DNA from: Rhynchopus sp. YZ270_cl-10
Lineage: Eukaryota > Euglenozoa > Diplonemea > Diplonemida > Diplonemidae
NCBI GenBank assembly: GCA_964035575.1
Contig: OZ037904.1
Span: 124,001-188,000 of the forward strand
Direction of reading: 5' to 3'
Length of the DNA stretch: 64,000 nt
Shown here: piece after piece, positions 775 to 61,216 of the stretch
Layout of the letters: each line of letters opens with the position of its first letter
How positions within the stretch are numbered: the first letter of the stretch is position 1
Made by a program: the position numbers and the translations under genes
Notes under the pieces: model-generated
What the model saw: only the letters and a program-made list of their open reading frames with translations
Told to the model about the DNA's origin: nothing
The model's database searches: none

Positions 775-2636
775 CATTCTTTTCTTAACGAAACGAAAAG
801 AATGCAAAGAGTGCAAACAATGTACCCTTGCTGAGCCTATGAAAAAAAACAACAACTCGGAATGCACTTTCTTCACTTTATTTCGTTGTGATTCATGACT
901 CCACAGAATACACTAAAAAAAAACAAAAAATGCAGCCGCACTTTTGAGAAAGTGGAATACAAAACGATTGTTTCACCACTTTTCCAAAAACAATAAAAAA
1001 AAAAACCCCACAAAAAAAAAAAACGTTCGTAAGAACGTCAGAAGCTTTCAGGACAGGAGTGCATTCCCCCCCCTTCGCCTTTTGGAATCACCGCTGAGAA
1101 CGGTTTTAGAGAACTTTTCGAGATCATAAAAAAGGGAGGAAAAAAGATGTGTCTTGCTTTTGGCACACAAGAAAATGGCGGGGGGGAAGGCAAAGGGGAA
1201 CGAGAGGGGGGGGGCCAAGAGGTGGGCTTTGTGAGAACGTATACAAGCTTTGTGCTTGGGGGTTTTTTTTTGGGGGGGATAATCTTTTATCAAAGGAAAA
1301 GGCTGGGAAGGAGAAGGAGAAGCTGGCATGTGTGTGGTGTGCTTGACAGCAGGCGTGGGGGCAGCTCGTAAGAGCGGAACCCCCCAGTGGGGAGGGGAGG
1401 GTTTAAGTCACAGTAGGGTATGTGTGTGTTTTGTGGAGAAAAAAAAAAAAGGAAAAATTCCATTTTTCGCGAGATGTCTTTACACTAGCAGTGAAAAAAG
1501 ACACACTTTGTAGAATAAAAGTGCCTCTCTCCTCTCCTCTCTCCCACATCCGAACTACTGTAGCTAAGGGAGAAAGTGGGTAATGCTGCAAATAGGGGTT
1601 CTGGTATGACCCCCTAATCTTGCTAATTGTGATAATGTCAACTTATTGCGTTTTTTTCTTTTTCTCGTTGTTATTTTGTTCATTTATTTTTTTTCAAAAA
1701 AAAAAAAGGGGGGAGAACGGGCTTTTGAGACAAAGATAAGAGTCTAAGACCTTCCCTCATACAAAAAAAAAAAAAAACTGTGGTTGTTGATGCAGACACC
1801 TCCGACTGACCCACATACGATGCCAGCCCCGGATGAAAGCACAAAAGGGAAAAAATAAATAAAGAGGCTGTTGAATGGATTTTTATGAAGTTTTTTTGTG
1901 GATGCTTTTTGTGCTCTTTTTTTTTGTTTTATTTTTGCACTCATGGTTTGCTGTGATAGTGACAACAGGGTAAGTTTTGTTTTTTTTTCTTTATTTGCTT
2001 TTGCAAAGTTTTTTGTTTTCTTTATTTTGTTGATAATCTTAGAGAGCAGTAGTTGCTTTCATGCACCATTTTGTTACTTTTGTGATAAATTGTTTGGAAG
2101 TGAAGTGGTGTGCACCTGCAAGCTCACGTTCTTTATTTTTTTTCTTCGTGAAAAAAAAAAATCTTCCAAATAAAATTAAAAAAGTTTTATAGGACCGAAC
2201 ATAAGTCTTGCGTGCCGAGCCACCTTTAAAAAAAAAACAACAAGAACTGCTCGTGTGGGTATATCGAACCCCGGAGTGTTGCACTTTAAAAAAAAAAATA
2301 CACAAAAAAAAAGTTGTTTCAATTCCAATTGATGGGATTTATTTGGATTGTACAGATGCATTGTGCTTGCAAATCTGTGCCTTTTTTTTTTTTTAGGGAA
2401 GGTATTTGGCAGGGTATTAGGGTGAAAATCCAAAATCCCGGAAAAAACTGGTTTTTCTGGTTTTCTCTCCTGGGCGGCAAAAACTAGTGTTTCTGGCGAA
2501 AACCTCCACCGTTGACGGACACAGTCACCCCTTTCGAGTTTTTCGGGGGTGGGGTCAGTGTCTTATCCAGGAATCCGATTTCAAAATATTTTTCGGCGCT
2601 GCTGACCCAGGGTAGACATTGGGAACATAGGGACTG
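775..2636. other. Gene-free stretch with dispersed modules
   Basis: Only short ORFs of biased composition occur, interrupted by homopolymers. Recognisable dispersed modules are the CTCCGACTGACCCAC family at about 1775-1845, a partial GATAAATTGTTTGGA module near 2083, and a stem-loop module at about 2190-2228. A B-box-like GGTTCGAT (minus strand) is present near 2265. Confidence 0.55.
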
Positions 2637-3599
2637 CATTTTTTTTTGCGGAGCAAAAAAAATAATATAAAATGGCGCCGCAGGCGAAAATTTTTTGAGG
2701 GTACGGTGTAAAAATCTAGCTTTTTATTGCACGTCGGGGCACTTTAATTTCACTCCCCTAACAAATTCCTGTAGAAAAATAAAAACGGCAGTGAAATAAA
2801 AAAGGCTTTATTTCTTTATTTCACTCTTTATTTCACTCTTTATTTCACTGCTCGATTTTTTTTTTTTTTTTCGCAAAGACAAAATTTTCAGCCGAAAAAA
2901 AAAATTTTTTTTGGGCTCAGATGGACCCAAAAATGCAAATAAAGCAAGAATTTTGATGTTTTGGAGGTACCCTAAATTGGTCAAAAATGGTAAAAATGGT
3001 AAAAATGGTAGGAATTTTGGGGGCTTTTTTAGGGGAAAAAAAGGGTGAGGGGAGTTGGGTCCAGTCATAGGGGGTATAGCATATTTTTTGGAAAATTCTT
3101 CAAAAAATCAAGGATTTTTGCTGGGCACAATGAAAATTTTCAGAAAAATCCCAATTTTCGGCCAAATTTGGAGCAAATTATGGCCCACCCACCCCGATTT
3201 TGGGTCAAAAACCGACTTCATTTTTGCACAGGAGTGCCTACGATTTCGTAAACCAGAGGTCCTCTGGATGCATGCATTGATAAACACAACACTGGAAATT
3301 GCAAGGAACGGGTCTGCATGTGCGTGTTCTCTAGCCACCACAGTCACAGGGTATGCACAAAATGACCGAAGTGCAATGGCGTGAACGAAGTGCAATGGCG
3401 ATAATGGAAAGATAGATGCCGGCATTGGTGAATTGCTGGAGTTCTGCACAGGAAGCTAGCATGACGTAGAATCACTGTGTGAACAAAATGACCGTATTTT
3501 GGTTGAAAAATTGACTTGAAAAATTTTTTCATAATTTGCCCAATCGAAGGTTTTCCTTGGATTTTTTGGGCCATTTTATGACGTACCACGCCCGATTTT
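2637..3599. repeat. A/T-rich repeat block
   Basis: Bases 2641-2690 (GGAGCAAAAAA... then ATGGCGCCGCAGGC) recur in diverged form at 9142-9182. Around 2809-2850 TTTATTTCACTC is repeated in tandem, and 2985-3010 repeats a TGGTAAAAA unit. The rest is fragmentary with no supported gene. Confidence 0.45.
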
Positions 3600-5900
3600 G
3601 GGCGAAAAAAAAATTTTTTTTTTGGTCAAAAATCGCCTTGTATTACCACTGTATTGGTGTAGGCTTGTACACAGAAGTGTGTTTTGTGTAACCACAGATG
3701 GTCAAAACACCCGATTTTTGCATTTTTTTTGCATTTTTTGGTGCCCAAAGACCCACCTCAGTGGTCGAAATTTTCCCGAAAAAAAAAATTTTTTTTTTTG
3801 AGATTTTTCGATTTTTCGACAAGGCGCTGGCCCATACAAAGTGCACTGGTGGTACAGAAAATGGCTGGGGAATAAACTCTAGATGCTCAAAACAGCCCAA
3901 TTCATGCTTTTTTTGACTTTTTGGTCTCAGAAGGGTGCCTAGGGTGTAGTGAGCAGGCCTCAAAAACACTTTTGTAACCCTCCAGAGGTCTCAAGGGATT
4001 CCCTTGAGAGCACCAAAAATTCCCGCGAGAGAATGTGCGTTTTGGTGACTGAAACCGGTCAAAAACTTTTTAAAACGGCCCACAACCTGGTTTCTGCGAC
4101 TCGAAAAGCGTATTCGCATGCTTTTGGGCGTCCGTGGGCCACAAACGATGGTACCCATGTGGGTCGAAAAACATACGTGTTTGTACACAAAACACCACAA
4201 AAGCGCTTGTTTGCAGGCAGTTCCTAAACACTGGTGTTTAGGTTTTTACTGTTGCTGCCCCCCCACTTACCCCCCGGGTTACCCTCCCGCCTAGGCTTAC
4301 CCCTAGGCTTACCCCCCCAGGGGGATACCCCAAAAATGACCATTTCGCGAAAATGCGCCAAAGTGTAAGATTTTTTCGTCATTGGAAAGATTGGGCCAAA
4401 AATCCAGTTATTACTAAATCAGATCGCTGAGAGATTTGTTACTAATTCCTAATTTCGTGTCGCGAGTTTACGTGTATTTTGCCTTAGGAAACGTGCGTTC
4501 CTTAAGGATTCTACAGGCAAAACAGGCGATTTTCACCAAAAACCGGGATTTTCGCCTTTTTGGGTGGTTTTTTCGGCCCATACCTGGCCATGTGGGCTGA
4601 GAAACGCGATTCTGGGGTGTTAGAACCGTGTATAGGCCCTTTTGTGGGCAAAAACAAGCCAAAAACCATGCACAACGTGGTGTTCTGTGACCACTCAGAG
4701 GTTTTATCTAGGTTAAGATCCTTTACGATTCCGTTTTGTGCCGGAAGATCTCGCTCATCAACCACACGAGCCAGCAGAAAGTGTTTAGGATTCGCAAAAC
4801 TAAATTCGGGTAGAAAACGACCTCTTCGGGTCACAAAGCTACATCCCTCCCTCCCTTGGCCCTCGGGATTCCCTTTCGGGAGGTCAGGGCTGCCCTGACC
4901 TCCCTCAAGGGATCCCTCGGGCTCTGGCGGGAGGGAGGGAAATAGCTAGTGAAAAAAAATTTTTGGATTTTTTTTTTTTGAGATTTTTCGATTTTTTGAC
5001 AAGGCGCTGGCCCATACAAAATGCACTGGTGGTACAGAAAATGGCTGGGGAATAAACTCTAGATGCTCAAAACAGCCCAATTCATGCTTTTTTTGACTTT
5101 TTGGTCTCAGAAGGGTACCTAGGGTGTAGTGAGCAGGCCTCAAAAACACTTGTGAAAAAAAAAAAATTTTTTTTTTTTTTTTCACGGGTTGCCGACGATC
5201 GTAGTACGAAATTTTACGATCGTAGCCTTTTTTTCCTCGTACTACGAAAATTTACGATCGTACTACGAAAATTTACGATCGTAAAATTTCGTAAAATCTC
5301 GTAAAATCTCGTAAAATTTCGTAGTGGTGTCGTTGCCGGTGGCTATTGCCTCCCAGGGAAAGGGACTCTCGAATTTTTTTTTTCGCCCCTAAAGAGGGCT
5401 AATTTCGACGATTTGAGGCCATTAAAAGCAAAATTTGGCACTTTTGAGCATCTGTGGGGGTCTAAAACGCGGTTTTGCGAACCCGAAATTTCGTGGTTTT
5501 TACCAAAAAGACAAGTCGATTTTTGAACCTTAAAAAACATCAAAAAAATTTTTCACAAGTGTTTTTGAGGCCTGCTCACTACACCCTAGGTACCCTTCTG
5601 GGACCAAAAAGTCAAAAAAAGCAAGAATTGGGCTGTTTTGAGCATCTAGAGTTAATTCCCCAGTCATTTTCTGTACCACCAGTGCATTTTGTATGGGCCA
5701 GCGCCTTGTCAAAAAATCGAAAAATCTCAAAAAAAAAATTTTTTTTTTCGGGAAAATTTCGACCCCTGAGTTGGGTTTTTGGGCACCAAAAAGTGCAAAA
5801 AAACGCAAAAATCGGGTGTTTTGACGATCTGGGGGTAAACCATATGCACTACTACAGGGGCCCACAATATCGACTTTTCCTTAGCAAATTCCTTGGAGTA
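3600..5900. mobile_element. Foldback-like composite element
   Basis: A block at 3650-3975 reappears inverted at 5545-5850, and part of it (GACAAGGCGCTGGCCCATAC onward) is present again in direct orientation at 4977-5155. A GC-rich palindrome lies at about 4853-4930. A diverged inverted relative is at 8440-8640. No transposase ORF was found. The exact ends are uncertain because A/T homopolymers border the arms. Confidence 0.5.
5184..5342. repeat. CGATCGTA-type short repeat array (left)
   Basis: Interleaved direct and inverted copies of TACGATCGTA, GTACTACGA and AAATTTTACGA make this block self-complementary. It begins GGGTTGCCGACGATCGTAGT, whose reverse complement closes the similar array at 8005-8183. 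The two arrays could be the arms of one larger foldback element spanning 5184-8183. Confidence 0.55.
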
Positions 5901-8183: not shown

Positions 8184-11100
8184 TTTTTGAGATTTTTGAA
8201 AAATCGGCCGATTTTGCGACCAAATTTGGCTGGGGAATTTCGGCGACCAAAGGGTCCCCCCTTTGGAAAAAAAACGAAATCGACCAAAAAAGGTACCCTA
8301 ACATTTCGGTTTTTTTCGGTTTTCATTTCGTTTTTTTCGGTTTTTCTGGTACAAGGGGAAATTTCCCTTTGCGAAAAAAAAAAAAAACGAAATGGACCGA
8401 ATTACACCGAATTGGACCGAACAGTTAGGGTACCTCCTTTGAGCATCACATATTTATTCCCCGGTCATTTTCTGTACAAAAAACCGGTTTGTATGGGCCA
8501 GCGCCTTAGCAAAAATCCGAAAAATCGGGAAAAAAAATTTTTTTTTCCCCGGAAAGTTTCGACTCCTGGGTGGGGTCTTGGGGTACCGAAAAATGCAAAA
8601 AAACGCAAAATTTGGGTATTTTGACCATCTGAGGGATTTTTTCACGTGTTTCACCTTAGATGGATGCGGATGCGGCTGGTGGGGGTGGGGTGTGCCCACC
8701 TACGGGAACAGTGCTGCCTGTGGAGTGGCCACTCCATCTGCCTCAATGGTGTTTAGGTCGGACATAAGCAACTCTGCAAGGTTGTGATACAGGAGATAAA
8801 GATATTTCGAAAAGAGAAAAATTTGAATGAAGATAACCCCAACACCAAAGGGAAGTTGATACGATGAACGTAAGCCTTGAGAACTAAGCGTTTAGCAGAC
8901 CCCCGGGTTGTGAAATAAAAGTGCCCCGTTGTGCAATAAAAAAATGTATTGTTGGTGTAATATTTTGCCTTAATTTCACTTACAGCCCCAAAACCCCTCG
9001 GAGTGGTATTTTTTCCCCTCGGGCTGCGCCCTCGGGGAAAAAAACCACTCCTCGGGGGTTTTTGGGGCTGTGCGTGAAATAAAGGCAAAAATATTACACG
9101 TCAATAATATATATTACACCACAGAGCCACTCAAACGAACCCTTTTTTACGGAGCAAAAAATGAAAAATGGCGCCGCAGGCAAAAAAAATTCAAGGAACA
9201 GCCATTTCCCAAAGGCACTCCCGTGGTTCAACCACGGTTCTACCAGGCGGGGGAAAAATGCGGGGAAAAAATCGAGTCCGCCCTAATCTGGGGACGACAT
9301 TTACAGAAAGGCCTGGTGAAAAGTGTCGGTTTTTTTTTCCCCTCCAGATTTCTCTGTTTTTTTTTTTTTTTTGAAAACCAGTTTTTGGAAAAACTGGTTT
9401 TGAAAACCAGTTTTTTTAACCACCCTAATACCCTGGTATTTGGAGATTTGTGAAGAAGTTTTTTTTTTTCTTTTGTTACTTTTTGGGGAAACGGGGAGAA
9501 ACGGAGAGGGGAGGGGAAGGAAATTGAAAAAAAAAAAAAATGAAGTGTGCCGCTCAAGCACACTCACAAAATGATAACAAATATGTTACGGAAAGAACGG
9601 AAAAAATGGGGGGAAAAAACTGTTTTTTTTCCCATAAACTCCTCTCGATTGGGGAGCAGGAAAAAAAAAAAGAGAAAAAAAAATATGGGGAGGAACATAG
9701 TTTCCAACCGCGCGGTCGGAAACTATTGAGGAAGGTGTTGTGTTACTTCACTAATAAAGAGGTGGGAAGGAGCAACACATTTTGCGTGAGAGAAAGAAAA
9801 AAGGGGGGGAAATAGTGTTTTGAAATTGATAAGATGAGAATAATTGTCTTAAAAAAAAAACGTAACAATTAACTAAAAGAGAAAAAGAAAACAAATAGAA
9901 AAGCAAGAGTGGGTAAGACGCTAAGCACTCTCTGCTTAGACACCTAACACTGGTGGGACTAGGCCTGAAATGATAAATAGGGAGAGAGAGAGAGAAGAGA
10001 GAGAAAGAGATAACCCACCCATCCTAGGGGGCAACAGTGAGGGGAAGGGGGGGGGGAAAAAATAAACTTGGTCAGAGAGAAAATTGAGGTAAAAAAAAAT
10101 ATCAGTCAATAACTGAACCACCGGGACTTTTCTCCCAAGGTTCGTTGAACAAAAAACTGATCGTCAAAAAAAATTGTCCGACCCCGCAATTGAAAGATTT
10201 TGAGCAGCGGAATGCAAAGAAATAAAAATAAAAATAAAAAAAAAAAATTTTTGAACTCCAGATTGGTGAATCCCAAAAAGTCGAAAATGAATTGCATGAA
10301 TGCGACCCACCGAAATTTTTAAAAAAAATTAAAACCCTGCGGGGATGGATTTCCGAGTCGATATCTTTTAATTGCGGGGTCGGACAATTTTTTTTGACGA
10401 GTAGAAATTAAAAATTTTTCTGTACAAAAACGGAAAAAAGTCCCGGTGGCTCAATTATTGACTGATATATGTTTTGTTGAGCCTCACGAAATCCTTCCAA
10501 CAAAAAATGGTAGTTATTGATGCAGGCAGACCTCCGACTGACCCACGTACGATGCCAGCCATATGGAATGAAAGCACACAACAACAACGAAAACGACAAA
10601 ATTAATATTGGGGGGGAAACTAACAGAGAAAAAGAGGGGAAAAAAAGAAGACTTCTAAAAATGAGTGTGCGTTCCTCTCTTTCGCACAACACTTAAAGAA
10701 TGCACTGCGGAAGACCAAAAAAGAAGAAAAAGAAAAAAAGGAAAACGTGAATGCCGATGATTATTGATGCAGCGCAAGGCCAACTCCCGTCCCGTGCCAA
10801 ACGATGTTTGTTTTTCCTTTGAAGATGAAGTTCCATCTTCTCAACTAAAAAAAAATAAATTTGAAAGGTAAGATGTGTGAGTCTAAAATTACTCAAAAAA
10901 AAAATTGGAGAATGAGCACTAAATTTGCTAGACAGGAGACCTGCCATACTGTTTTTTTTTTTTTTTTTTTTAAAGAATGGAACGAGCACCAAAAAAAACA
11001 TTCAACAAATAAAGAAAAGTGAAGATGAAACCTTAACGTCATACGCTTAGCCACCTATCACGAAATAATAACATAGATTGGGGAATCAGTAATCAGATAC

Positions 11101-12739: not shown

Positions 12740-13530
12740 GTACGCGACCGTGCAGTGTACCCGAAAGCCACCAAAACGCACAAAAAATCACAAAAAATCC
12801 TGCAAACCCGCGTCGGACCCGTACGGAGAGTGGCTACTCAAACACCCACTCAGCCCTTCGTCCTCTGAGGCTCCCTCATCCGTCAACGCGAGAGCCATAA
12901 TAGCCGCCCCGTACCCCCTCCAGGCACAGAAAGTAAAAACTGCCCTTCCTCAGTCCGGAAGTACCACCTCATCCGGTTCCCTGTCGTAAAAGAGGTGTAG
13001 AGGTTACGAGATACAATGCAAAAATGTTTTGGGGCTGAAAACCCCAAAACTTATTAAATCACAAACATTCACAAAAATTCGAGGTGCGGAAGAAAAATGT
13101 GATGTGTCACATGTGTGAATTTTTGTGAATGTTTTGCGAGTTTTTTGTGAATTTCCCTCAATATTCCCATGGGTTCGGAAAATTCCTTTCGAAATCCTTT
13201 TGTCAAATCCCAAAAATGATGATATCTTTGGATACTATTCCAATCTCAATGTGTGGGTATTTATGACTTTGTTCTGAAAGTTCGAAGGGTGCACACTGCA
13301 CCAAAAATATTGAACGATGGTCGTGACAGCCACTCCCACCCCCACTGCATCCCCCATTGGTCACCCAGCATATAATATATTTGTCTGCGGTGACGGCACC
13401 TGGGCAGTACTCGTTGTTCAATGAAATACCCACACAACTATAAAAATAAGCGCAAAAATATAAAAAATAAGCGCAAAAAATAATAGAAATACGCGCAAAA
13501 TGGCAAAAATATTTAATATTAAAGAGAAAA

Positions 13531-13790
13531 GTTCGATTTCGGCCTCGAAAATACCCGTGACACCGATTTGTCACGGTACTTTGTCACGGATTTTTTTTGA
13601 AAGATTCGATTTCGTGACAAGCCGATTTTTTCATTGACACACAAAATTCAATTTAGTGACAAATGACTTTTTTCATTGACAAAAAAAAATTCGATTTCGT
13701 GACAAATCCATTTTTTCATTGACAAAAAAATGTCATTGAAAAAAATGGATTTTGTCAAGGAAAAAGTCGTGACAGCCAACCCGCCAGTCA
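13531..13790. repeat. TGTCACG-rich inverted arm (left)
   Basis: Repeated TGTCACG, TTTTTCATTGACA and TTCGATTTCGTGACA units, inverted with respect to 15386-15735. The outer edge TCGATTTCGGCCTCGAAAAT matches the reverse complement of the right arm near 15705-15730. Confidence 0.65.
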
Positions 13791-14149
13791 CTGAAAAGTG
13801 ACCAGACAGCCACTTGACAAACACAAAAGAGGCCATTCTTGAGCTGTCTAGAAACCTAAGGGCAGAGACTGAAGACACAAGGTATGATAACTTTATGATT
13901 ATGCAAGACTTAGTATATCGCGAACACGGTCAGGCTTGCACGCCTCTGGCCAGAGGCCAGCCCCACTAAATGATATGCAGCAGACACTCATTGCAGATTT
14001 CATTTTCATTCGGTAAAAAATTAATGGGTGCGCAAGTTTCTATACCTAATACCCCAACCCTCACCCATACATTCCATTACACACACCAAAACAGATCGAA
14101 TCCACCAGCGCATGCGACGGAAGCAGATTCAGATTGTGGTTTGATAAGC

Positions 14150-14900
14150 AGAGTTCGGTTATTATGGTGGTGGAAAGGGGGGTGGGAACACTTTGTCAGT
14201 CACTGCTATAGCCATTAACCAGGGAGCATAGCTAGTGCAAGAAATTCGACTTTGGAAACCTTCCGGAAAGTCTGTCCTCTGCTTCCGGAGGACTAGACAC
14301 AAGAAAATATTGTTTGTTCCCCCAGAAAACCAGTGCACAATTCACACTCCTTGTGGGTGGTCTTGTTGCCTTTTCGTCATAGTAATTTTGGCCCAGGCAT
14401 GCTCTCGAAGCATGACAATTTAGTGTGTATGGGGCAGGGTGTTGTTTTGTTCTGAATTCTCTTTGTTATAACATCTAAGTCAATCGCGGGTGGTGGTTTG
14501 TGTAGCGTGAGGCACTCTTTTTAGCAAACTTCCTGCGGCTGCTAAAGTGTTATTTCTTCGGATTTAACAACGTACAGCGTAACATAGTGGTTTCGCCTGG
14601 TCGACACAACCTTTGATAGATACGGGATAACCAACCCCCTTCGACCCCTCGTGGGTTCACTGAACAAGCCCTAGTGGTAGTTAAACGCGATTGACATTTA
14701 CATTTCCTAGAGATGAAAGAACAAGATAACACTTCTGTACCCGCGCATCAAAATTGTGGAAAACTTTGCACCCCAAACACCCTCAACAACGCCCGCCAAA
14801 AGGCGCCCCTTGTTGCTGGGAGTTGGTTCTCATGTTTTGATACACTGCACAGCAGGCATTCCTCTGAGTCCAACGCATGTTTGGCCTGTCTGCGGCGTTG
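14150..14900. repeat. Dispersed core repeat, copy 2
   Basis: Matches 7020-7850 in order, including GGGAACACTTTGTCAGTCAC, GGAGCATAGCTAGTGCAAG and GGGAGTTGGTTCTCATG. Here it is nested inside a different pair of inverted arms. Confidence 0.6.
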
Positions 14901-15385
14901 TACTTAAGGTGCACGAAGACAGGGTCTGGTGGTAAATTTTGCGTAGTACTGCGACGTGGTACTACGTGGGTCTGGGAACCTGGTACCTGGGTACAGGATA
15001 TTTGTTGTAAAGACATCTTCCACCATGCATTGAGGAGGGTAAGACAGTGTTCGCAGTTTCTACCTGATAGCATTACACATTTAACTTCTCCACGGGGGTC
15101 TTGGGCCGTTCATTCGGTTATACCTTGACTACCGGAAGATATTCTTGAGGCCTTTTTGGTCTCTAGAATATCCGGTCTTCCCGAACGGAGGCACACTTTG
15201 TGTGTTACTACGACCTGGCAATTTCCAGCAGTAGGTTAAGTAATCTTTCTTGTAAATTGTTGGATCATTATCTCCTCAGTGCATGCATGCCCCACGTGAC
15301 TGGACACTTTTGTGTTTGTCATGTGGAGCTGTGGTTGCTCTTTCACAACTTTTATCCTTGTGTCCAGTGTACCCAGTACCCAGTG

Positions 15386-15735
15386 CCCTGTCACGACTTT
15401 TTCCGTGACAAAAAGTTTGGTTTCCTTGACAAAATCCATTTCTGTCACGACTTTTTCCGTGACAAAAAGTTCGGTTTCCTTGACAAAATCCATTTTTTCA
15501 TTGACATTTTTTTGTCACTGAATTTTTGGATTTGTCACGAAATCGAATTTTTTTTTGTCAATGAAAAAATCGGTTTGTCACGAAATCGAATTTTGTGTGT
15601 CAATGAAAAAATTGGTTTGTCACGAAATCGATTTTTTTTTGTCACGAAATCGAATCTTTCAAAAAAATTCCGTGACAAAATTCCGTGACAAATCGGTGTC
15701 ACGGTAATTTTCGAGGCCGAAATCGAACTTTTCTC
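15386..15735. repeat. TGTCACG-rich inverted arm (right)
   Basis: The inverted counterpart of 13531-13790. A CACGACTTTTTCCGTGAC unit is tandemly duplicated at about 15392 and 15445. Confidence 0.65.
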
Positions 15736-15845
15736 AATATTAAAATAATATTAAACGAAATAAGCGGTCACTTATTGACTTTAATTGCCCCTTATTTTCA
15801 ATTTAGTGCCGCGTATTTTATAAGCGGCTGCTTAGTATGAATGAA

Positions 15846-24043: not shown

Positions 24044-24195
24044 TTGAATGAATTTCGAAGAGAAGACACCCACCCCGATCAAGTTTTCCACAAAGTCTTT
24101 ATGGTGTACGACCTTCGCACCAGGTTAAATATAGTGGAGCTCATCCTCGGGTTGTCTGCACTAAGTATTCAAAAAACAAAATATGGGGGGAAAAA
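24044..24195 (+). other. Possible isolated coding fragment
   Basis: An open stretch reads DTHPDQVFHKVFMVYDL and then NIVELILGLSALSIQ, which looks like folded protein rather than low complexity. It runs into the foldback element starting at 24202. No neighbouring exon or homologue was recognised, so it may be a gene fragment or chance. Confidence 0.2.
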
Positions 24196-24580
24196 TAGGG
24201 GTAGGCTAGTTGACGCCACGGGTCGGTTTAGGAAATTTGTCCATTTTTCTGGAAAATCGTGTCCCATACCCCCCCATACCGCCCTCAAATGCCCCCAAAC
24301 CCTCCAAAACCCTCGCGAACCCTCGCATACCCCACCATACCCAACCATACCCTGCCGTACCCTCCCATACCGCACGTTTGCCTTTTTTTTTGGGATAATC
24401 ATATCCCATACCATGCCATACCCTGCCATGCCCTGCCATACCGTGCCATACCCTGCCATACCCATGCCAAACCCTGCCATACCCATGCCAAACCGTGCCA
24501 TACCATGCCATACCATGCCAAACCCTGCCATACCGTGCCAAACCGTGCCATACCGTGCCATACCCTGCCATACCCTCCCG

Positions 24581-24664
24581 GTACTGGGTACTGGGTACTG
24601 GGTACTGGGTACTGGGTACTGGGTACTGGGTACTGGGTACTGGGTACTGGGTACTGGGTACTGG
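24581..24664. repeat. TACTGGG heptamer array
   Basis: About 12 copies inside the 24202 element. Confidence 0.9.
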
Positions 24665-24894
24665 CTAATGGCTACCCGTGCCACACTGTGCCACACCCTG
24701 CCATACCGTGCCATACCCGTGCCAAACCGTGCCACACCCTGCCATACCGTGCCATACCCTGCCATACCATGCCAAACCCTGCCATACCCATGCCAAACCG
24801 TGCCATACCATGCCAAACCGTGCCATACCATGCCATACCATGCCAAACCCTGCCATACCGTGCCATACCGTGCCATACCCTGCCATACCCTCCC

Positions 24895-25000
24895 GGTACT
24901 GGGTACTGGGTACTGGGTACTGGGTACTGGGTACTGGGTACTGGGTACTGGGTACTGGGTACTGGGTACTGGGTACTGGGTACTGGGTACTGGGTACTGG
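24895..25000. repeat. TACTGGG heptamer array
   Basis: About 15 copies; part of a larger duplicated unit with the array at 24581. Confidence 0.9.
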
Positions 25001-25221
25001 CTAATGGCTACCCGTGCCACACTGTGCCACACCCTGCCATACCGTGCCATACCCGTGCCAAACCGTGCCACACCCTGCCATACCGTGCCATACCCTGCCA
25101 TACCATGCCAAACCCTGCCATACCCTGCCCTACCCTTACTAACCCTCTCAAACCCCCCCAAATCTGCCCAAATCCTCTCAAACCCTCCCAAACCCAAATG
25201 TCCGTGACGTCAACTAGCCTA

Positions 25222-25402
25222 AGGGGGGTTTTTTGGGGGGTCTTTTAATTCAACCAAAATGGACTCAATAAAATTTAAAGAACATTGAATGAAACTTGAA
25301 GCAGGTTCCTTTGAGGGAAACACATTGAAATAAAAAAAAAAATCGTGGTTCTAAGTTGCCAATCAAACCAATCGAGCATTGAGAAAGTGAAGCTGATATA
25401 GT

Positions 25403-34803: not shown

Positions 34804-36686
34804 TCAAACCTGTCCGGCCTCAAGCTCGGGGTGAGTGTTAAGCGCGCCTCCAACAAGAGGAGCCACACCAAGCTTGACAAGCATAGACTCAAATTCGTCG
34901 ACGTCAATGGTGCCGTTCCCGTCGAGGTCGTACTGCGAGAACATGGCTGTGACGGCGGTGTGGTCGACCTGGAGCGAGGGGTCACGTGGCGTCTCCTTCT
35001 TGATGTTACAGGCCTCAGACTCCTTGCTCTCCTCAAAGTTCCCCTCGAGGTAGCGTTCCAGACGCGCCTTCACGGTGTCCACAAATTGCTCCGTGGTCAA
35101 ACCCGAGGGGCCGACCATATCCCGGGTACCTTCTCCCAGTCTGAAGGAGGTGTGGACGGCACGCTTCAGGCAGGTGGTGAAGGTCTTCATCTCCGCCTCC
35201 TTGTCAGCCCCGGCGAGGAACGCGGAGTGGTCCATCGCTCCCATGATAGCTTCAACCATGCCGAGAGGGTTGAAGGATGTCTCTTCTCCACGGAGGTGCA
35301 TGTGCCAGAGGTCCGCCACGGTGCCGTGGGAGGCTTCGAACTCTTTGATGAGAGTTCCGTCGTCGGATTTGCCGATGAGGTTGGAGGTGATGAAGCCGGG
35401 GCTGCGGTGCATCTGTGCAACTTCGTCTGTGAGCATGTCACCGTCGTAGTTGTGCGCCGCCATACCAAACCCTCCGTCCGTCCAACGGATGATCTGCATC
35501 GTCGCCGCGTCGGAGATCAGATGCTGCAGCTCGCCCCCGCACTTCTCGAGAAGCCCTGCCTCCCGGTAGCTCTCCCTGTAGTGGTCATCGAAGGTCTTCT
35601 TCATAATCGCCCAGAAGCTTTCCTGCCATTTGAACACCGTCTTCTTCGTCACCACGTACGGCACGACCCCCTCCGCAAGGCAGCGGGTGAAGAAGTGGTG
35701 CGCCAGGTCGTCGACGTTGTCGAGCGGGTTGTGGTACACCACGGCCACGTTGTTGTCGTCGTGCAGATCTCTCTGGTCCACAATCTTGAAGTCGGAACGA
35801 ATGCACGTCGCCTCCGCACCACCCTCGAGAGGGTAGAATGTGGTAACCAGCTTGCCGCTTCCCAGCTCTTTCCATCCCGCTCCGTACTCCCCTCCGACAG
35901 CATGACGTTCGAAAAGCACCGGGCGTTTGTACCCAAGATCGACTCCGTCAATGTGGATGGTGTCTCTGCTAATGGTGATGCCGTTCCATCCACGGCGCAT
36001 GGCGCCGTTGGGCGAGCCCCAAGGCTTCTTGAGGCCGAGGGATTCGACCTGCTCGCTGGTGGGGGTGATGGTGGGCTCCTTGAAGATGGCCTTCAGGCGC
36101 TTGCCTGCGTCGACGGCGTCAATGAGAACCTTGTCCTCGGAGTCGTCGCGGGCCTTGCAGCTGAGGTCGTAGAACTCCCACCGGTCGGTGTTGACGAAGG
36201 GCTTGATCCAGCCGTCCATGACGAGCTCCATTGCGTAGCGGGTCATCTCCTCACCGGAGATGTACACCTGTAAGGGGGTGGAGTAAAAATCATAAAGACA
36301 ATACAAAGAAAGGGGACTGTTTTGAAACTCGACTCTTACAGTCTGCCAACTGATCTTGATTACTCGACTAGAAAAAGGGGGAAGATTATTTTGAACGCAG
36401 CCAAAAAACAGTGTATGGGGATCTGAATTTTGGCGCAAGTGATTTTTAAAGGGGAGGAGAAAATAGTCGGTATCAGGCGATTAAACGTTTGCTTTATTAT
36501 TCGAGTTTCTAATAACACTACGTGGAAGGAAAAACTAAGCAAAGAGTGATGCATAGAATTTCAAGACCGCAGCACAACAGCACAGCAACATACCATCGGT
36601 GCAGCGTCAATCTTAGCGTCAGAAGACGCCCATCTGCGCACGACCAGTGTTCTAGGGCCGCTCCGGAGAACGAATTGACGCATCAT
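34804..36686 (-). CDS. Mitochondrial isocitrate dehydrogenase with C-terminal EF-hand
   Basis: Exon 1 is 36594-36686 and exon 2 is 34804-36267. A 326-base intron (donor GTATG, acceptor TTACAG) joins in phase 0, giving 518 residues. Exon 1 encodes an Arg-rich presequence (MMRQFVLRSGPRTLVVRRWA) ending at KIDAAPM, which continues into VYISGEEMTR, the usual IDH start. The IDH fold is shown by NYDGDMLTDEVAQ (metal-binding Asp residues) and EASHGTV near the nucleotide site. The residues after HGTV are AD-L instead of the TR-H of NADP enzymes, which suggests NAD+ use. One canonical EF-hand loop, DLDGNGTIDVDE, is at 478-489 and points to calcium control. The role is isocitrate to 2-oxoglutarate in the TCA cycle. 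It resembles the type II NAD-IDH group known from some marine algae. Confidence 0.9.
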
Positions 36687-54439: not shown

Positions 54440-55456
54440 TCACACAACGGAGTGGATAGCGTCGAGAGCAATCCCGCATTTGTTCTCTCCACGCACAATG
54501 CGGTAGTAGCCCTCCTCACCCCAGTCCTTCGCCCAGGAGTTCTTGATCACCCAGTAGTCGACGCCGTTTTCAGTTCCGAAGCCGACGAAGAGAACAGCGT
54601 GGTCGAGGGAGTTCCACTTCGCCTGGCAGTTGTGTGGGTTGTCAATTCCACTGGCGTAGTCCTGCATGGGTGTGGAGTCGATGCTGGTTGTGATGGGACC
54701 TGCCTTGACCAGCTGCTCCACGATGTTCGACTCATTGGTTGGCCCGCTAGGAGTTCCTCCGGACACTTGGTAGTACTTTGTGATATTAGCAACACTCTTA
54801 TGCCCAGTCTCGCACGCATGATGCGACCCCGATCCTGAGACGTAAGGGTAGTCTGCTTCTGCTGCAACACCACCGTTTCTGACAATCCACGTGAACGCAT
54901 ATTCTTGCATGCCTCCATTACACCCTGAGCTAGTATGGTCGCAGGAGACAAGCTGCTGTTCAGAAAGCGATGTCAAGGTGTTCCCCGCAAGAAACCAGGT
55001 CCCCTCGATGTCCCCTGTTGTCGCAAAGCTCCAGCACGACCCGCACGATCCTTGGTTCTTCACTGGGGTGACCGCACCTTTTGTGCGCCAGTCGAATGCA
55101 TTGATGTCGGTCACCTCCACATCCTTCAGCTCCGGGAAGCGAGCGCATGATGTGCACTGACCGTTCCACCTTTGTGCGTTGTCTGCCAAGGCACCGCCTT
55201 TGCCTCTGGTTGCATAGATGCGTTTGAACTCCTCAGGTGTCATGTCGCTGAACTTTGTTAGTCCATGTGAAGGGTTGCCAGAGGCAGCAACGCGTTCAAG
55301 AGATGCACTGAATGCGGCAAAGCGCTGACGCTCCTCTGCCGCGGAGTATTGCTTATGGAAGCGCTGTTTGTACAATTGGAAGGACGCTTCGTGCTCTGTC
55401 ATGGCGAAGGACATAGCGGCGCAGTGCAGTACCGCGAGCGGAATCATCTTGTGCAT
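54440..55456 (-). CDS. Papain-family (C1A, cathepsin-like) cysteine protease
   Basis: A single exon of 338 residues from MHKMIPLAVL. A signal peptide (about 1-18) is followed by an I29 inhibitor prodomain (FQLYKQRFHKQYSAAEERQR, then LTKFSDMTPEEF). The mature enzyme starts near residue 119 (FDWRTKGAVTPVKNQGSCGS). Catalytic Cys141 in CGSCWSF, His286 in LDHAVLFVGFG, Asn306 in IKNSWAKDWGEEGYY and the oxyanion Gln135 are all present, as is the GCNGG motif. It should be an active endo-lysosomal or secreted protease made as a zymogen. CTSC at 101-104 between prodomain and mature part is unusual. An upstream in-frame Met (55543) was rejected because it would bury the signal peptide. A double-hairpin repeat lies about 90 bases upstream. 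Confidence 0.93.
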   Translation of the reverse strand: MHKMIPLAVLHCAAMSFAMTEHEASFQLYKQRFHKQYSAAEERQRFAAFSASLERVAASGNPSHGLTKFSDMTPEEFKRIYATRGKGGALADNAQRWNGQCTSCARFPELKDVEVTDINAFDWRTKGAVTPVKNQGSCGSCWSFATTGDIEGTWFLAGNTLTSLSEQQLVSCDHTSSGCNGGMQEYAFTWIVRNGGVAAEADYPYVSGSGSHHACETGHKSVANITKYYQVSGGTPSGPTNESNIVEQLVKAGPITTSIDSTPMQDYASGIDNPHNCQAKWNSLDHAVLFVGFGTENGVDYWVIKNSWAKDWGEEGYYRIVRGENKCGIALDAIHSVV

Positions 55457-55545
55457 TGTTTGTCTATTGTATACTCTGCTTAAATGGTGATGGAGAGACG
55501 TGGGGAGGTATAAATGAGGAGGGATTGGAAGAAGTTGTTTCATAT

Positions 55546-55605: not shown

Positions 55606-55679
55606 TTTTAGAGGGGGGGGGGGGTTGGACGAAGGAAAAAAAACCCCCCTCGTACGTTTTGTGGTGCCGGGGGGGGGGG

Positions 55680-56875
55680 TAGGGGAGGGTCACTGTACTC
55701 GATAAATGCGATTTTTCCGATTTTGATCCTCAGAACCGCAGAAGTCCCCGAAAACTATACCAAACCACCTAGGGGACCCAAAAAACGCACCAGCGCCCCA
55801 GTTTTGACACAGAAACACTCAGATGATGCCTGAAATGCAATTTTTAAAAAATGCCTACAGAACTTGTACCTGCCCACCCCCGTAGATAGAGCAAATCACA
55901 CATTCATCACGCCTCAGTGTGGGCCAGGGGCCAGAAAAGCCCCCAAAGCCACATATTTTCACCCCAGAACCTATCCCGAGGGGTACCCAGGCTGTTTCGG
56001 GGTGTTTAGAGGGACTTGGTGGAACTTAGAACCATGTTTCAAAAAGGGTACAAGTACTGTGCCAAGGGTTTTCCCACCCTAAGGTATCTGAAGCCGTCAA
56101 AAAACGTGAAGTGGGCAATAAATCAAAAAATACCCCCTGAGGTCAAAAAAACCACACCATAGGCCCATTTGGACCCCAAAAATCGAATTCCGCCCGGTTT
56201 TGGGCACTTTTAACCACTTCTGAGCGACTTTTTTGCGTTTTTTAAAAGTGACCACCAACTTGTACCTGCCCACCCCCCCTGTAGATAGAGCAACTCACAC
56301 ATCCATCACGCCTCAGTGTGAGCCAGGGGCCAGAAAAGCCCCCAAAGCCACATATTTTCACCCCAGAACCTATCCCGAGGGGTACCCAGGCTGTTTCGGG
56401 GTGTTTAGAGGGACTTGGTGGAACTTAGAACCATGTTTCAAAAGGGTACCAGTACTTGGTCCCTTGAGAGGGCAAACCCTTGGCACAGTACTTGTACCCT
56501 TTTTGAAACATGGTTCTAAGTTCCACCAAGTCCCTCTAAACACCCCGAAACAGCCTGGGTACCCCTCGGGATAGGTTCTGGGGTGAAAATATGTGGCTTT
56601 GGGGGCTTTTCTGGCCCCTGGCTCACACTGAGGCGTGATGGATGTGTGAGTTGCTCTATCTACGGGGGTGGGCAGGTACAAGTTCTGTAGGCACTCTTTT
56701 AAAATTGCATTTCAGGCATTATCTGAGTGTTTCTGTGTCAAAACTGGGGCGCTGGTGCGTTTTTTGGGTCCCCTAGGTGGTTTGGTATAGTTTTCGGGGA
56801 CTTCTGCGGTTCTGAGGATCAAAATCGGAAAAATCGCATTTATCGAGAGATTTAACGTGCAGTGACCCTCCCCTA
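55680..56875. mobile_element. Foldback element 1 (TAGGGGAGGGTCACTG ends)
   Basis: TAGGGGAGGGTCACTG (55680-55695) is perfectly inverted at 56860-56875. Arms of about 380 bases (55696-56080 and 56480-56859) are almost exact inverses, and a third, direct partial copy of the arm lies at 56260-56455. Nothing resembles a transposase. ORFs such as the 113-residue one here come from the arms. Oligo-G borders both ends. Confidence 0.8.
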
Positions 56876-56901
56876 GGGGGGGGGGGGGGGGGGGGGGGGG
56901 G
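56876..56901. repeat. G-run between foldback elements
   Basis: About 26 consecutive G separate elements 1 and 2. It is a likely assembly and replication trouble spot and could form G-quadruplexes. Confidence 0.9.
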
Positions 56902-58492
56902 TAGGGGGTCCGACTGTGAGTAAAATTACCGTACAAAAAACTCATTATTAAACTTCTGGTCATTTCCAAGGCAACTGCGGGTGAAAAACACCCTCAGAGT
57001 GGGTCACAGGGGGCCTGTGGGCCGAAAAACGACGCAGAAGCCACCCCAGAATACAAAAAAATGGGAAAAAATAGTGAAAAAACGGCTTTTTGACGGTTTT
57101 GGCCATGTTGGGCAAAATAGCGATTTTTCAAGAAAAAACCAAAAAAACGGTTATTTTTTGACATCACAAAACCTCTTTTGGCACAAATATGCCCCAAAAG
57201 TGGCCCGTGAGTCCATTCCAACCTGTTTCGGACGTATTTGACACTTTTGGAAGTGTTTTTTTGGTGTTTTTACGTCAAAAAAAATACCCTGGCAATACCC
57301 TGACCGCGCTCCGGCAGCATTCCGGCATGCTGTTTGACCCATATAGGGGTCAAGAAATGGCCAAAAACCCCCGAAAAAGGACCCTGGGAGCCCAGATAGT
57401 TCCAAATTTCCACCACATCCACACCTAAACACCGCAAAAACACCACAGAAAGTCGTCTTTAAAAACACACTTTTTTCAAAAAGGTCATTATGGAGCCTGT
57501 CTGACGATAGCGATTTTTCAAGAAAAAACCAAAAAAACGGCTATTTTTTGACATCACAAAACCTCTTTTGGCACAAATATGCCCCAAAAGTGGCCCGTGA
57601 GTCCATTCCAACCTGTTTTGGACATATTTGACACTTTTGCAAGTGTTTTTTTGGTGTTTTTACATCAAAAAAAAATGGTATGGCAATGGTATGGCAGCGC
57701 TCCGGTAGCATTCCAGCATGCTGTTTGACCCATATAGGGGTCAAGAAATGGCTAAAAACCCCCGAAAAAGGACCCTGGGAGCCCAGATAGTTCCAAATTT
57801 CCACCACATCCCCATCCAAACACTGCAAAAACACGACAGAAAGTCGTCTTAAAAAACACACTTTTTTCAAAAAGGCTATTATGGAACCTGCCTGATGACC
57901 TTTTTGAAAAAAGTGTGTTTTTTAAGACGATTTTCTGTGGTGTTTTTGCGGTGTTTGGGTGGGGATGAGGTGGAAATTTGGAAAGATTGGGGTTCCGGGG
58001 GCCCTTTTTCAGGGGTTTTAAGCAAAAATATGGCCAAGAATGTGGTCGGAGCAATGGTGGCAGTGCTGTCCAAGGACCGTCCAAGGATTTTTTTGGGGTG
58101 TTTTTCAGCGTGAAAACACCAAAAAAACACTTGCAAAAGTGTCAAATATGTCCAAAACAGGTTGGAATGGACTCACGGGCCACTTTTGGGGCATATTTGT
58201 GCCAAAAGAGGTTTTGTGATGTCAAAAAATAACCGTTTTTTTGGTTTTTTCTTGAAAAATCGCTATTTTGCCCAACATGGCCAAAACCGCCAAAAAGCCG
58301 TTTTTTCACTATTTTTTTCCATTTTTTTGTATTCTGGGGTGGCTTCTGGGTCGTTTTTCGGCCCACAGGCCCCCTGTGACCCACTCTGAGGGTGTTTTTC
58401 ACCCGCAGTTGCCTTGGAAATGACCAGAAGTTTAATAATGAGTTTTTTGTACGAAATTTTATACACAAGTCTATTAGGAGTCGGACCCCCTA
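56902..58492. mobile_element. Foldback element 2 (TAGGGGGTCCGACT ends)
   Basis: TAGGGGGTCCGACT at 56902 is inverted at 58479-58492. Outer arms 56940-57270 and 58110-58455 are near-exact inverses. A 350-base unit containing TGTTTGACCCATATAGGGGT is present at 57140-57470 and again at 57505-57860. No transposase-like frame. Confidence 0.8.
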
Positions 58493-59314
58493 GGCATACT
58501 GTGCAGGCGAGCCGTTTTTAGGCGAGTTTTTCGTTTTCCTGATTTTCAGGAAAAACTCGCCAAAAACTCGCCCTACTCGCCCATTACTCGCCTATTACTC
58601 GCCAAAACTCGCCAAAAACTCGCCAAAACTCGCCTAAACTCGCCTAAACTCGCCCCAATTTGGGTGCAAATCCTGGTGCACATACGCACCTTGGGGGTGA
58701 AAATGTGCACCAGGATGTGAAAATGGAGGGCGGGGGTGACTGATGACAACATGCCACTCGAAAACACAAAAAAATTGAAATTGTGTCACTTGTACGTCTA
58801 AAGGCAACCATGTCACGGCAGTGGCTGACAGGCATGTATGTAAACATTTGCTCCAGGGGAAGATCCAGGCGTGCCATAGATCCCGGGGGACAAGACGTGC
58901 TACAATCCGGAGGATGACGAAGACATGAGCCGGGGCTACACTCGCTATACAACAATGTCCTCGCCATGCCGGTAAATGGCAACCCTGCAGGCCACCCCTT
59001 GGCGGTACTCCCCCACGACTACATCGCACCCATCTGTGCAAGCTTCATGGATCCGCAGAAGCTACAGCTGGACTGGTGGTACTGGTTGTGGAAGCCTACA
59101 AAGCAAACTGTAGAGGTCTTGTTCAAGTGGAACGAAAAAAATTTTCTCTTCAAAACTCAAATTTCCCTCATATTTTCGTGTGTACACTTTTCCCAAGGTA
59201 AAATCCCTACCAAAAAAAAAACTCGCCAAAACTCGCCCCCCAAAAATAGGCGAGTTTTAGGCGAGTTTTTGGCGAGTAGGCGAGTTTTTTTTACTCGCCC
59301 GCACAGTATGCCTA
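58491..59314. mobile_element. Foldback element 3 (TAGGCATACTGTGC ends, ACTCGCC repeats)
   Basis: TAGGCATACTGTGC at 58491 is inverted at 59301-59314. Its first TA is the last TA of element 2. Both ends carry arrays of CTCGCC/GGCGAG heptamers in mixed orientation (58505-58655 and 59220-59300). The unique middle (58660-59170) has a plus-strand frame with HPLAVLPHDYIAPICASF and DWWYWLWKP, perhaps a captured gene fragment. Confidence 0.75.
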
Positions 59315-59535
59315 GGCATAGTGTGCAGACGAACATTTTTGGTTCGTCGACGAACAAAATGTTCGTCGGTTTTGTTCGTCGATGTTCGTCGACGAACATC
59401 GACGAACATCGACGAACAGGTCCCTGCCACAAGGGCAACCCACGACGAACAACGACGAACATCGACGAACAAAAATTTTTTTTCCCCCCACGACGAACAT
59501 CGACGAACATTTTGTTCGTCTGCACACTATGCCTA
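59313..59535. mobile_element. Foldback element 4 (TAGGCATAGTGTGC ends, CGACGAACAT repeats)
   Basis: TAGGCATAGTGTGCAGACGAAC-type left end is inverted at 59514-59535. Its TA is shared with element 3, and its end sequence differs from that of element 3 by one base within the first 14. The body is CGACGAACAT repeats in both orientations around a short unique core (GGTCCCTGCCACAAGGGCAA). G18 follows. Confidence 0.8.
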
Positions 59536-59788
59536 GGGGGGGGGGGGGGGTTGCATAGAGGCTTGTGAGGGAGGGAACAGTGTGTCCCCTTTTTCAAAGA
59601 AGGTAACAACAAAAATGAATACAATTTTTTTTTTTGAAAGATGACTCATGAACCCACAGATACAAAAAAATAAATAAAAAGAACGTTCGCTTTCGTTGGG
59701 GGAGGACACATCTTAGATAGAGATCCTGGAAACATAACATAGCCTTACGAAAGCAAAATTGGACAAAAAAATAATAACAAAATCTATT
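59536..59788. other. Spacer with G tract
   Basis: A run of about 16 G, then A/T-rich DNA. Includes the left copy (59784-59788) of the CTATT duplication flanking the next element. Confidence 0.5.
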
Positions 59789-60322: not shown

Positions 60323-60630
60323 TATTCTGATGAGACTGAGGCCTCGTCGAGAAAGCTCGGAATACACCCAAAAATCCCTGAAAAACCACTTTTTCTGGGG
60401 AAAAATTTTTTTTTTACCGCCCCCCTCGAAATGAAAAACTCAAATCCTAGAAAAAACACTGGGTGTATAAAAAAAAAATTTCCCCACGGGTGTTGGAAAA
60501 ATTATTATTTTTTTTCGTTGCTGAGCTTTTTAACGCCGGCATTTGCATTTCCGGAATCCGTCCGGCCAGTGGTGGGGTCAATTTGCCGAAATGGCCAAGT
60601 TCTCGTTTTTGGTCAATTTTTCGCAGTGCA

Positions 60631-60939
60631 CAGTATACACAGTATACACAGTATACACAGTATACACAGTATACACAGTATACACAGTATACACAGTATA
60701 CACAGTATACACAGTATACACAGTATACACAGTATACACAGTATACACAGTATACACAGTATACACAGTATACACAGTATACACAGTATACACAGTATAC
60801 ACAGTATACACAGTATACACAGTATACACAGTATACACAGTATACACAGTATACACAGTATACACAGTATACACAGTATACACAGTATACACAGTATACA
60901 CAGTATACACAGTATACACAGTATACACAGTATACACAG
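60631..60939. repeat. CAGTATACA 9-mer satellite
   Basis: About 34 near-perfect copies. Because 9 is divisible by 3, each frame gives a tripeptide repeat (IHS, YTQ, VYT), so the long ORFs across it on both strands are artefacts. It lies inside the 59789-61216 element. Confidence 0.95.
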
Positions 60940-61216
60940 GGGGAAAACTCACTTTGTGGGCGCCGCAGGCGCACGGTACGCATCTTTCGAGATTTTTTCC
61001 AGCCCCGTTCTGTGCGTTCTTTTGACTCAGCGAGTCGATTGCGTTCAACGGTGGGGTCACACATGAGTATGCAAGAGCGGAGGCGCGTCAACAGGGGGAG
61101 TGGAAAAACCCCAAGGTAAAAAAATGTTTTTATACACCACCCCTAAAAAAAGGGTATTATTTAGCAGTTTGTTAGCACTTTTTTAGCATGCAAATTTGCT
61201 GGTTTCAGCCACACCA

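Follow-up and report, generated by a model that had tools for sequence, protein, structure and literature searches.

Among the marks by which transposon superfamilies are recognised, the length of the duplicated target site is regarded as fixed. Tc1/mariner elements, for their part, target TA and duplicate it. End-to-end arrays of tract-targeted MULEs are already known in plants, as described for SaTar elements (PMC5907723). These elements of guayule and rice are non-autonomous, have inverted ends, insert into simple repeats and generate duplications of 9-10 bp where these are visible, and both MuTAnT and the microsatellite MITEs of pineapple are likewise microsatellite-targeted, members of such arrays or clusters being unrelated to one another (PMC4486113; PMC8449440). 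The hATm elements have 5'-TAGGGTG termini and are flanked by 8-9-bp duplications (PMC6004678). The genome of Diplonema papillatum contains many dispersed repeats, among which TATE, MULE and Helitron elements are named, and the word hAT is absent from the main text of its description (PMC10161547).

The array described here resembles the plant systems in its inverted ends, its targeting of a simple repeat and its end-to-end arrangement, and hATm in its TAGG termini. SaTar, MuTAnT and the pineapple MITEs are mainly (TA)n-targeted and have been assigned to MULEs. In contrast, the tract here is a G homopolymer, the elements that target it (class A) have no proven enzyme, and a second, apparently hAT-related class (class B) joins them at TA. 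A literature search, mainly of open-access sources, found no hAT-type element with a TA duplication, no hAT-related TA-duplicating element stacked on the end of another element, and no array targeted to a G homopolymer, although absence from such a search carries little weight. What looks new is the pairing of a TA-duplicating, probably hAT-related class with the ends of G-tract-targeted elements.

The window is a stretch of 64,000 nucleotides from the diplonemid Rhynchopus sp. YZ270_cl-10, in which four inverted-repeat elements follow one another in the order G11, element 1, G26, element 2, TA, element 3, TA, element 4, G15. All of them start with TAGG and end with CCTA, and exact terminal inverted matches of 16, 14, 14 and 23 nt, respectively, bear out their delimitation in the initial annotation. 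To the left of element 1 (55680-56875; ends TAGGGGAGGGTCACTG) lies the G11 tract (55669-55679, + strand), which would be a portion of the original G tract; its length is compatible with the 11-bp duplication discussed below, yet uninformative. The G26 tract (56876-56901, + strand) separates element 1 from element 2 (56902-58492; ends TAGGGGGTCCGACT). The inverted arms of both are long, 387 nt at 97% in element 1 and 397 nt at 92% in element 2, and further inverted repeats lie inside them. The term "foldback", for elements consisting mostly of long inverted arms, fits these two as a statement on shape and not on descent. Element 3 (58491-59314; ends TAGGCATACTGTGCAGGCGAG) contains ACTCGCCAAA-type subrepeats, and element 4 (59313-59535; ends TAGGCATAGTGTGCAGACGAA) contains 10-nt TCGACGAACA subrepeats; the G15 tract (59536-59550, + strand) closes the array on the right. 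As had been noticed initially, neighbours share a single TA at 58491-58492 and again at 59313-59314, the former being the terminal TA of element 2, which element 3 would have used as its target, and elements 3 and 4 alone have related ends among the repeats listed for the window.

The array was also described as devoid of transposase, and none was seen: a search of the genome with the class B transposase gave no match in it among the best candidates, which were those scored, and no frame of 250 aa is present, the longest ATG frame from 59400 onward, including frames overlapping that region, being 200 aa. A papain-type protease frame (54440-55543; PF00112, E 1.8e-69) is read on the other strand, and the array starts upstream of it, 137 bp from its first ATG. 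Elsewhere in the window, a frame on the - strand at 34804-36246 combines an isocitrate/isopropylmalate dehydrogenase with an EF hand at the C terminus (PF00180, E 2.7e-17; PF00036, E 5.3e-7), further long inverted-repeat structures lie at 3673-5853, 13517-15742 and 10092-10475, and long tandem repeats with both strands open at 24101-25248 (GTGYWVL / QYPVPST) and 60431-61066 (SIHSIHSIH / YCVYCVY).

The initial annotation had suggested that all four elements could form one family. They are instead two kinds of transposon, class A (elements 1 and 2) and class B (elements 3 and 4), which differ in their ends, copy sets and flank repeats. Recurrence of such ends elsewhere in the genome had been named as support for the original reading, and a genome-wide search did detect further copies. 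In the 152.4-Mb genome, the end pattern of elements 3 and 4, TAGGCATASTGTGCAG, occurs at 338 places, the element-2 family pattern, TAGGGGGTMCGACTCC, at 388, and the element-1 family end at 169; as none of the reversed controls gave a match, these patterns are not due to chance. The string GGGGGGGGTAGGGG was found at 835 places, against 76 for its reversed control.

Class A elements have the termini TAGGGG...CCCCTA, and their flanks were compared in the element-2 family. Seventeen pairs of flanks were at hand, one of which (L084/L085) was dropped as it represents the ends of two different copies. After setting aside one copy with a lost left end, two blocked by a class B insertion and two with pure homopolymer flanks, 11 of the 16 copies compared were informative. 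An exact 11-bp direct repeat lies outside the TA in four of them (ACCCCCCCCTC, CCCCCCCCCTA, TGGGGGGGGGG and TAGGGGGGGAC). The repeat is of 8, 13 and 14 bp in one copy each, and the remaining four have no exact repeat, three of these (L074/L075, L078/L079 and L092/L093) having flanks that agree once run length is ignored, which is not the case for L041. For the element-2 family, these observations support, if less strongly, a duplication of about 11 bp blurred by slippage in G runs, slippage being assumed for most copies. Since the 11-bp repeats lie outside the TA, the terminal TA of class A belongs to the element itself, and the TA was rejected as the duplication of this class. That the G tracts are parts of the elements was rejected as well, a duplicated target tract explaining them.

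Neither an autonomous class A copy nor a class A enzyme was found, and class A is therefore not filed as MULE. A 4.4-kb candidate with element-1 ends (L096) was rejected as an autonomous copy; it is an element-1-family copy with another element nested at a TA, and no frame in it exceeds 193 aa. The nested element, at about 1203-4420 and with ends CACGGCGGGGTCC, has TA on both sides, where element 1 of the window has a single TA at the same point, and L096 thus represents a separate, clean case of TA duplication by another kind of element. The ends CACGGCGGGGTCC also flank an element-4 copy in L029.

Class B elements start with GGCATA, and their relation to TA was examined with a TA-free version of the end pattern, found at 337 places, which tests the TA without presupposing it. 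In the portion of that list comparable with the TA-bearing list, TA precedes 98 of 99 inner ends of the element-3/4 type; TA at all 43 fetched class B ends is not independent evidence in the way this count is, as the loci were mostly drawn with the TA-bearing pattern. The initial proposal that the elements target TA thus stands for elements 3 and 4 and is not supported for elements 1 and 2, whose families have a TA of their own and, in that of element 2, often repeats of about 11 bp from the G tract outside it. Lengths of the short element-4 copies follow a ladder of 10 bp (213, 223, 233, 243, 253) in 16 of 18 cases among contigs C1-C18 with both ends listed, the two others measuring 185 and 199 bp. 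Such steps are as expected if 10-nt TCGACGAACA subrepeats were acquired or lost.

Relatives of both class B families that carry a transposase are 4.1-4.6 kb long. Those of element 4 (L039, 813-5394; L040, 784-5374) measure 4581 and 4590 bp and encode identical 823-aa frames, and in L064 (701-4783), a relative that shares the ends of element 3, the transposase frame is broken. Further class B families with a transposase were found at L060 (ends TAGGCATACCTAGAAAGCG) and on contig C40 (ends TAGGCATACATGTCATGCG). A protein search of the genome with the class B transposase gave 56 matching stretches among the best candidates scored. Two more distant relatives, L063 (C42) and L065 (C37), lie in different surroundings; for L063, the ends are close to TACATAGCGCTCC and AATTAGAGTC subrepeats are present. 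The 504-aa L065 protein is 47% identical over 99% coverage to DIPPA_31718 (P0004), annotated as a hypothetical protein of the euglenozoan Diplonema papillatum, and the ENA sequence P0001 is 43% identical to the 823-aa protein. A first profile search (A1) retrieved nothing beyond P0001, and in a scan of viral contigs with the 823-aa protein none of five pattern matches was confirmed.

In a Pfam scan of seven proteins, the hAT dimerisation domain PF05699 was below cut-off in four (E 0.058 for the 823-aa protein, 0.068 for P0001, 0.025 for L065 and 0.0074 for L060) and absent in three. A PDB search with the 823-aa protein by itself gave no transposase, its best matches falling in the Ala/Lys/Pro-rich N-terminal part. 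With an eight-row profile (A2), the best PDB matches were three Hermes-type chains, with whole-sequence E values of 2.9e-4 to 5.3e-4, followed by U1C zinc fingers in the N-terminal part (E 0.01). The match to Hermes consists of three collinear stretches, namely V-D with CxxH, TRW and a C-terminal stretch, none of which is under 0.001 singly (best 0.038-0.046). In the C-terminal stretch, PiSVtsVDavFs is aligned on Hermes PASSAASERTFS, and all five sequences reaching it have Asp at the Glu position of the SER-FS motif. This Glu is Glu572 of Hermes, a catalytic residue.

The class B enzyme is thus probably hAT-related, though the match is weak. It is below the Pfam cut-off and has Asp for Glu, and the elements also differ from hAT in their duplication. 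The flanks of L039, L040, L060 and L064 contain no 8-bp repeat and have TA in common instead, and the same was seen in the listed flanks of smaller class B copies. The 8-bp target duplication (range 5-8 bp) expected of hAT was therefore not found, and class B is not filed as hAT. It shares TA as target and duplication with Tc1/mariner, but searches of Pfam and PDB with the 823-aa protein and related sequences gave no match to a Tc1/mariner transposase. A tentative proposal, for which the odds seem not far from balanced, is that class B represents a hAT-related lineage so far undescribed, perhaps of diplonemid-like protists. Its transposase would carry Asp at the position of the catalytic Glu and would integrate at palindromic C-TA-G sites, duplicating the 2 bp of TA. 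For the most part, such a lineage would settle secondarily, on the ends of elements that target G tracts, each insertion making the next landing site.

The sequence outward of class B ends reads TA-GGGGG in 225 of 338 cases. When equal sequences are counted once, 43 distinct class B ends were fetched, and 34 to 36 of them have G at each of positions +1 to +5, where (G+C)/2 of the fetched loci predicts 24%. Twenty-one of these ends face short G runs or class A ends, six G tracts of at least 10, three other class B ends, one a GGTGGGGG end and 12 other sequence. Class B copies at L014, L032 and L042 all adjoin TAGAGTGTGCTCCACTAT, which may be where a further family of repeats ends. The data support a preference of class B for C-TA-GGGG, that is, for the junction formed by a class A copy and a G tract, and the 12 ends in other sequence make end-targeting a preference and not a rule. 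The initial idea that each element sits in the terminal TA of its neighbour thus applies to elements 3 and 4, and the preference for "own ends" becomes one for C-TA-GGGG, often a class A end in a G tract.

This preference is reflected in what precedes the 388 ends of the element-2 family: GGGGG in 148, CCCCC in 66, some of which may face the end of another class A copy, and the class B end TATGCC in 70, which are direct junctions between the two classes. Both the unfilled and the filled form of the site are thus present, which, together with TA at 98 of 99 class B ends, speaks for a duplication of TA, 2 bp in length. On contigs 1-7, where the compared lists are complete, inspection by eye found G8 directly at the opposite class A end in six of nine such junctions, and a listed CCCCC end there in none. 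Element-3-type copies adjoin at least six different class A ends, indicating repeated insertion and not copying of one array.

The best explanation of the array, to which a probability of about three in four may be given, is that cut-and-paste transposons of two kinds were stacked in two steps. In the first step, class A foldbacks would insert into a G tract and duplicate about 11 bp, leaving a G tract of the same strand on both sides. A class A copy would then have one end reading CCCCC-TA-GGGG and the other GGGG-TA-GGGG, and the former would be the preferred target of class B. In the second step, class B (element 3, then element 4) would enter the TA of the CCCCC-TA-GGGG end and duplicate it, and as each insertion would remake a C-TA-G site outward (GCC-TA-GGGG), a second class B element could land beside the first. 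Class B would be mobilised in trans by the putatively hAT-related transposase of its 4.1-4.6-kb relatives. Against this model speak the 104 of 388 class A ends that lie outside all three contexts, the seven of 11 informative class A copies that lack an exact 11-bp repeat, the 12 of 43 distinct class B ends in other sequence, the weak match to hAT and the search for an autonomous class A copy or enzyme, which found none.

An unlikely alternative is that all the elements are microsatellite-targeted MULE derivatives piled in one G tract, TA sharing being a by-product of recombination or repair. The end-to-end arrays and 9-10-bp duplications of the plant SaTar MULEs (PMC5907723) offer a precedent that class A fits by its size, long arms, tract targeting and repeats of about 11 bp, and 12 matches to the MULE domain (PF10551) are present in the genome. 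Those on contigs 1-14, where the list of element-2-family ends is complete, were inspected by eye, and none of the six has such an end listed within 10 kb; moreover, class B has relatives that encode a transposase of their own resembling that of hAT, and its ends are marked by TA and not by a repeat of 9-11 bp.

The single TA-targeting foldback family with a preference for its own ends, as first proposed, accounts for TAGG and CCTA at the ends of all four elements and for the TA common to elements 2/3 and 3/4. This reading is improbable given that classes A and B differ in ends and copy sets, that class A lies between G tracts of the same strand, and that several class A copies have 11-bp repeats in their flanks, beyond the terminal TA, including repeats with distinct borders at L086/L087 (ACTGGGGGGGGGG before the copy, TGGGGGGGGGGCC after it). 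That the array arose in assembly, or that a single array spread by segmental duplication, is very improbable: G tracts are hard to assemble and one 101-bp junction between the classes is identical at contig C50, but the junctions recur with different class A ends, element-3 lengths (802-879 bp) and outer flanks, and their 70 occurrences genome-wide show that the array is not one odd spot of the assembly.

Two-step stacking would explain simply how transposons come to lie end to end, the insertion of one element creating the target of another, and would have a bearing on the pile-up of such elements in G tracts beside genes. If a hAT-related enzyme does duplicate TA, the duplication length that marks a superfamily is open to change, which the two full-length copies, being identical, allow to be tested.
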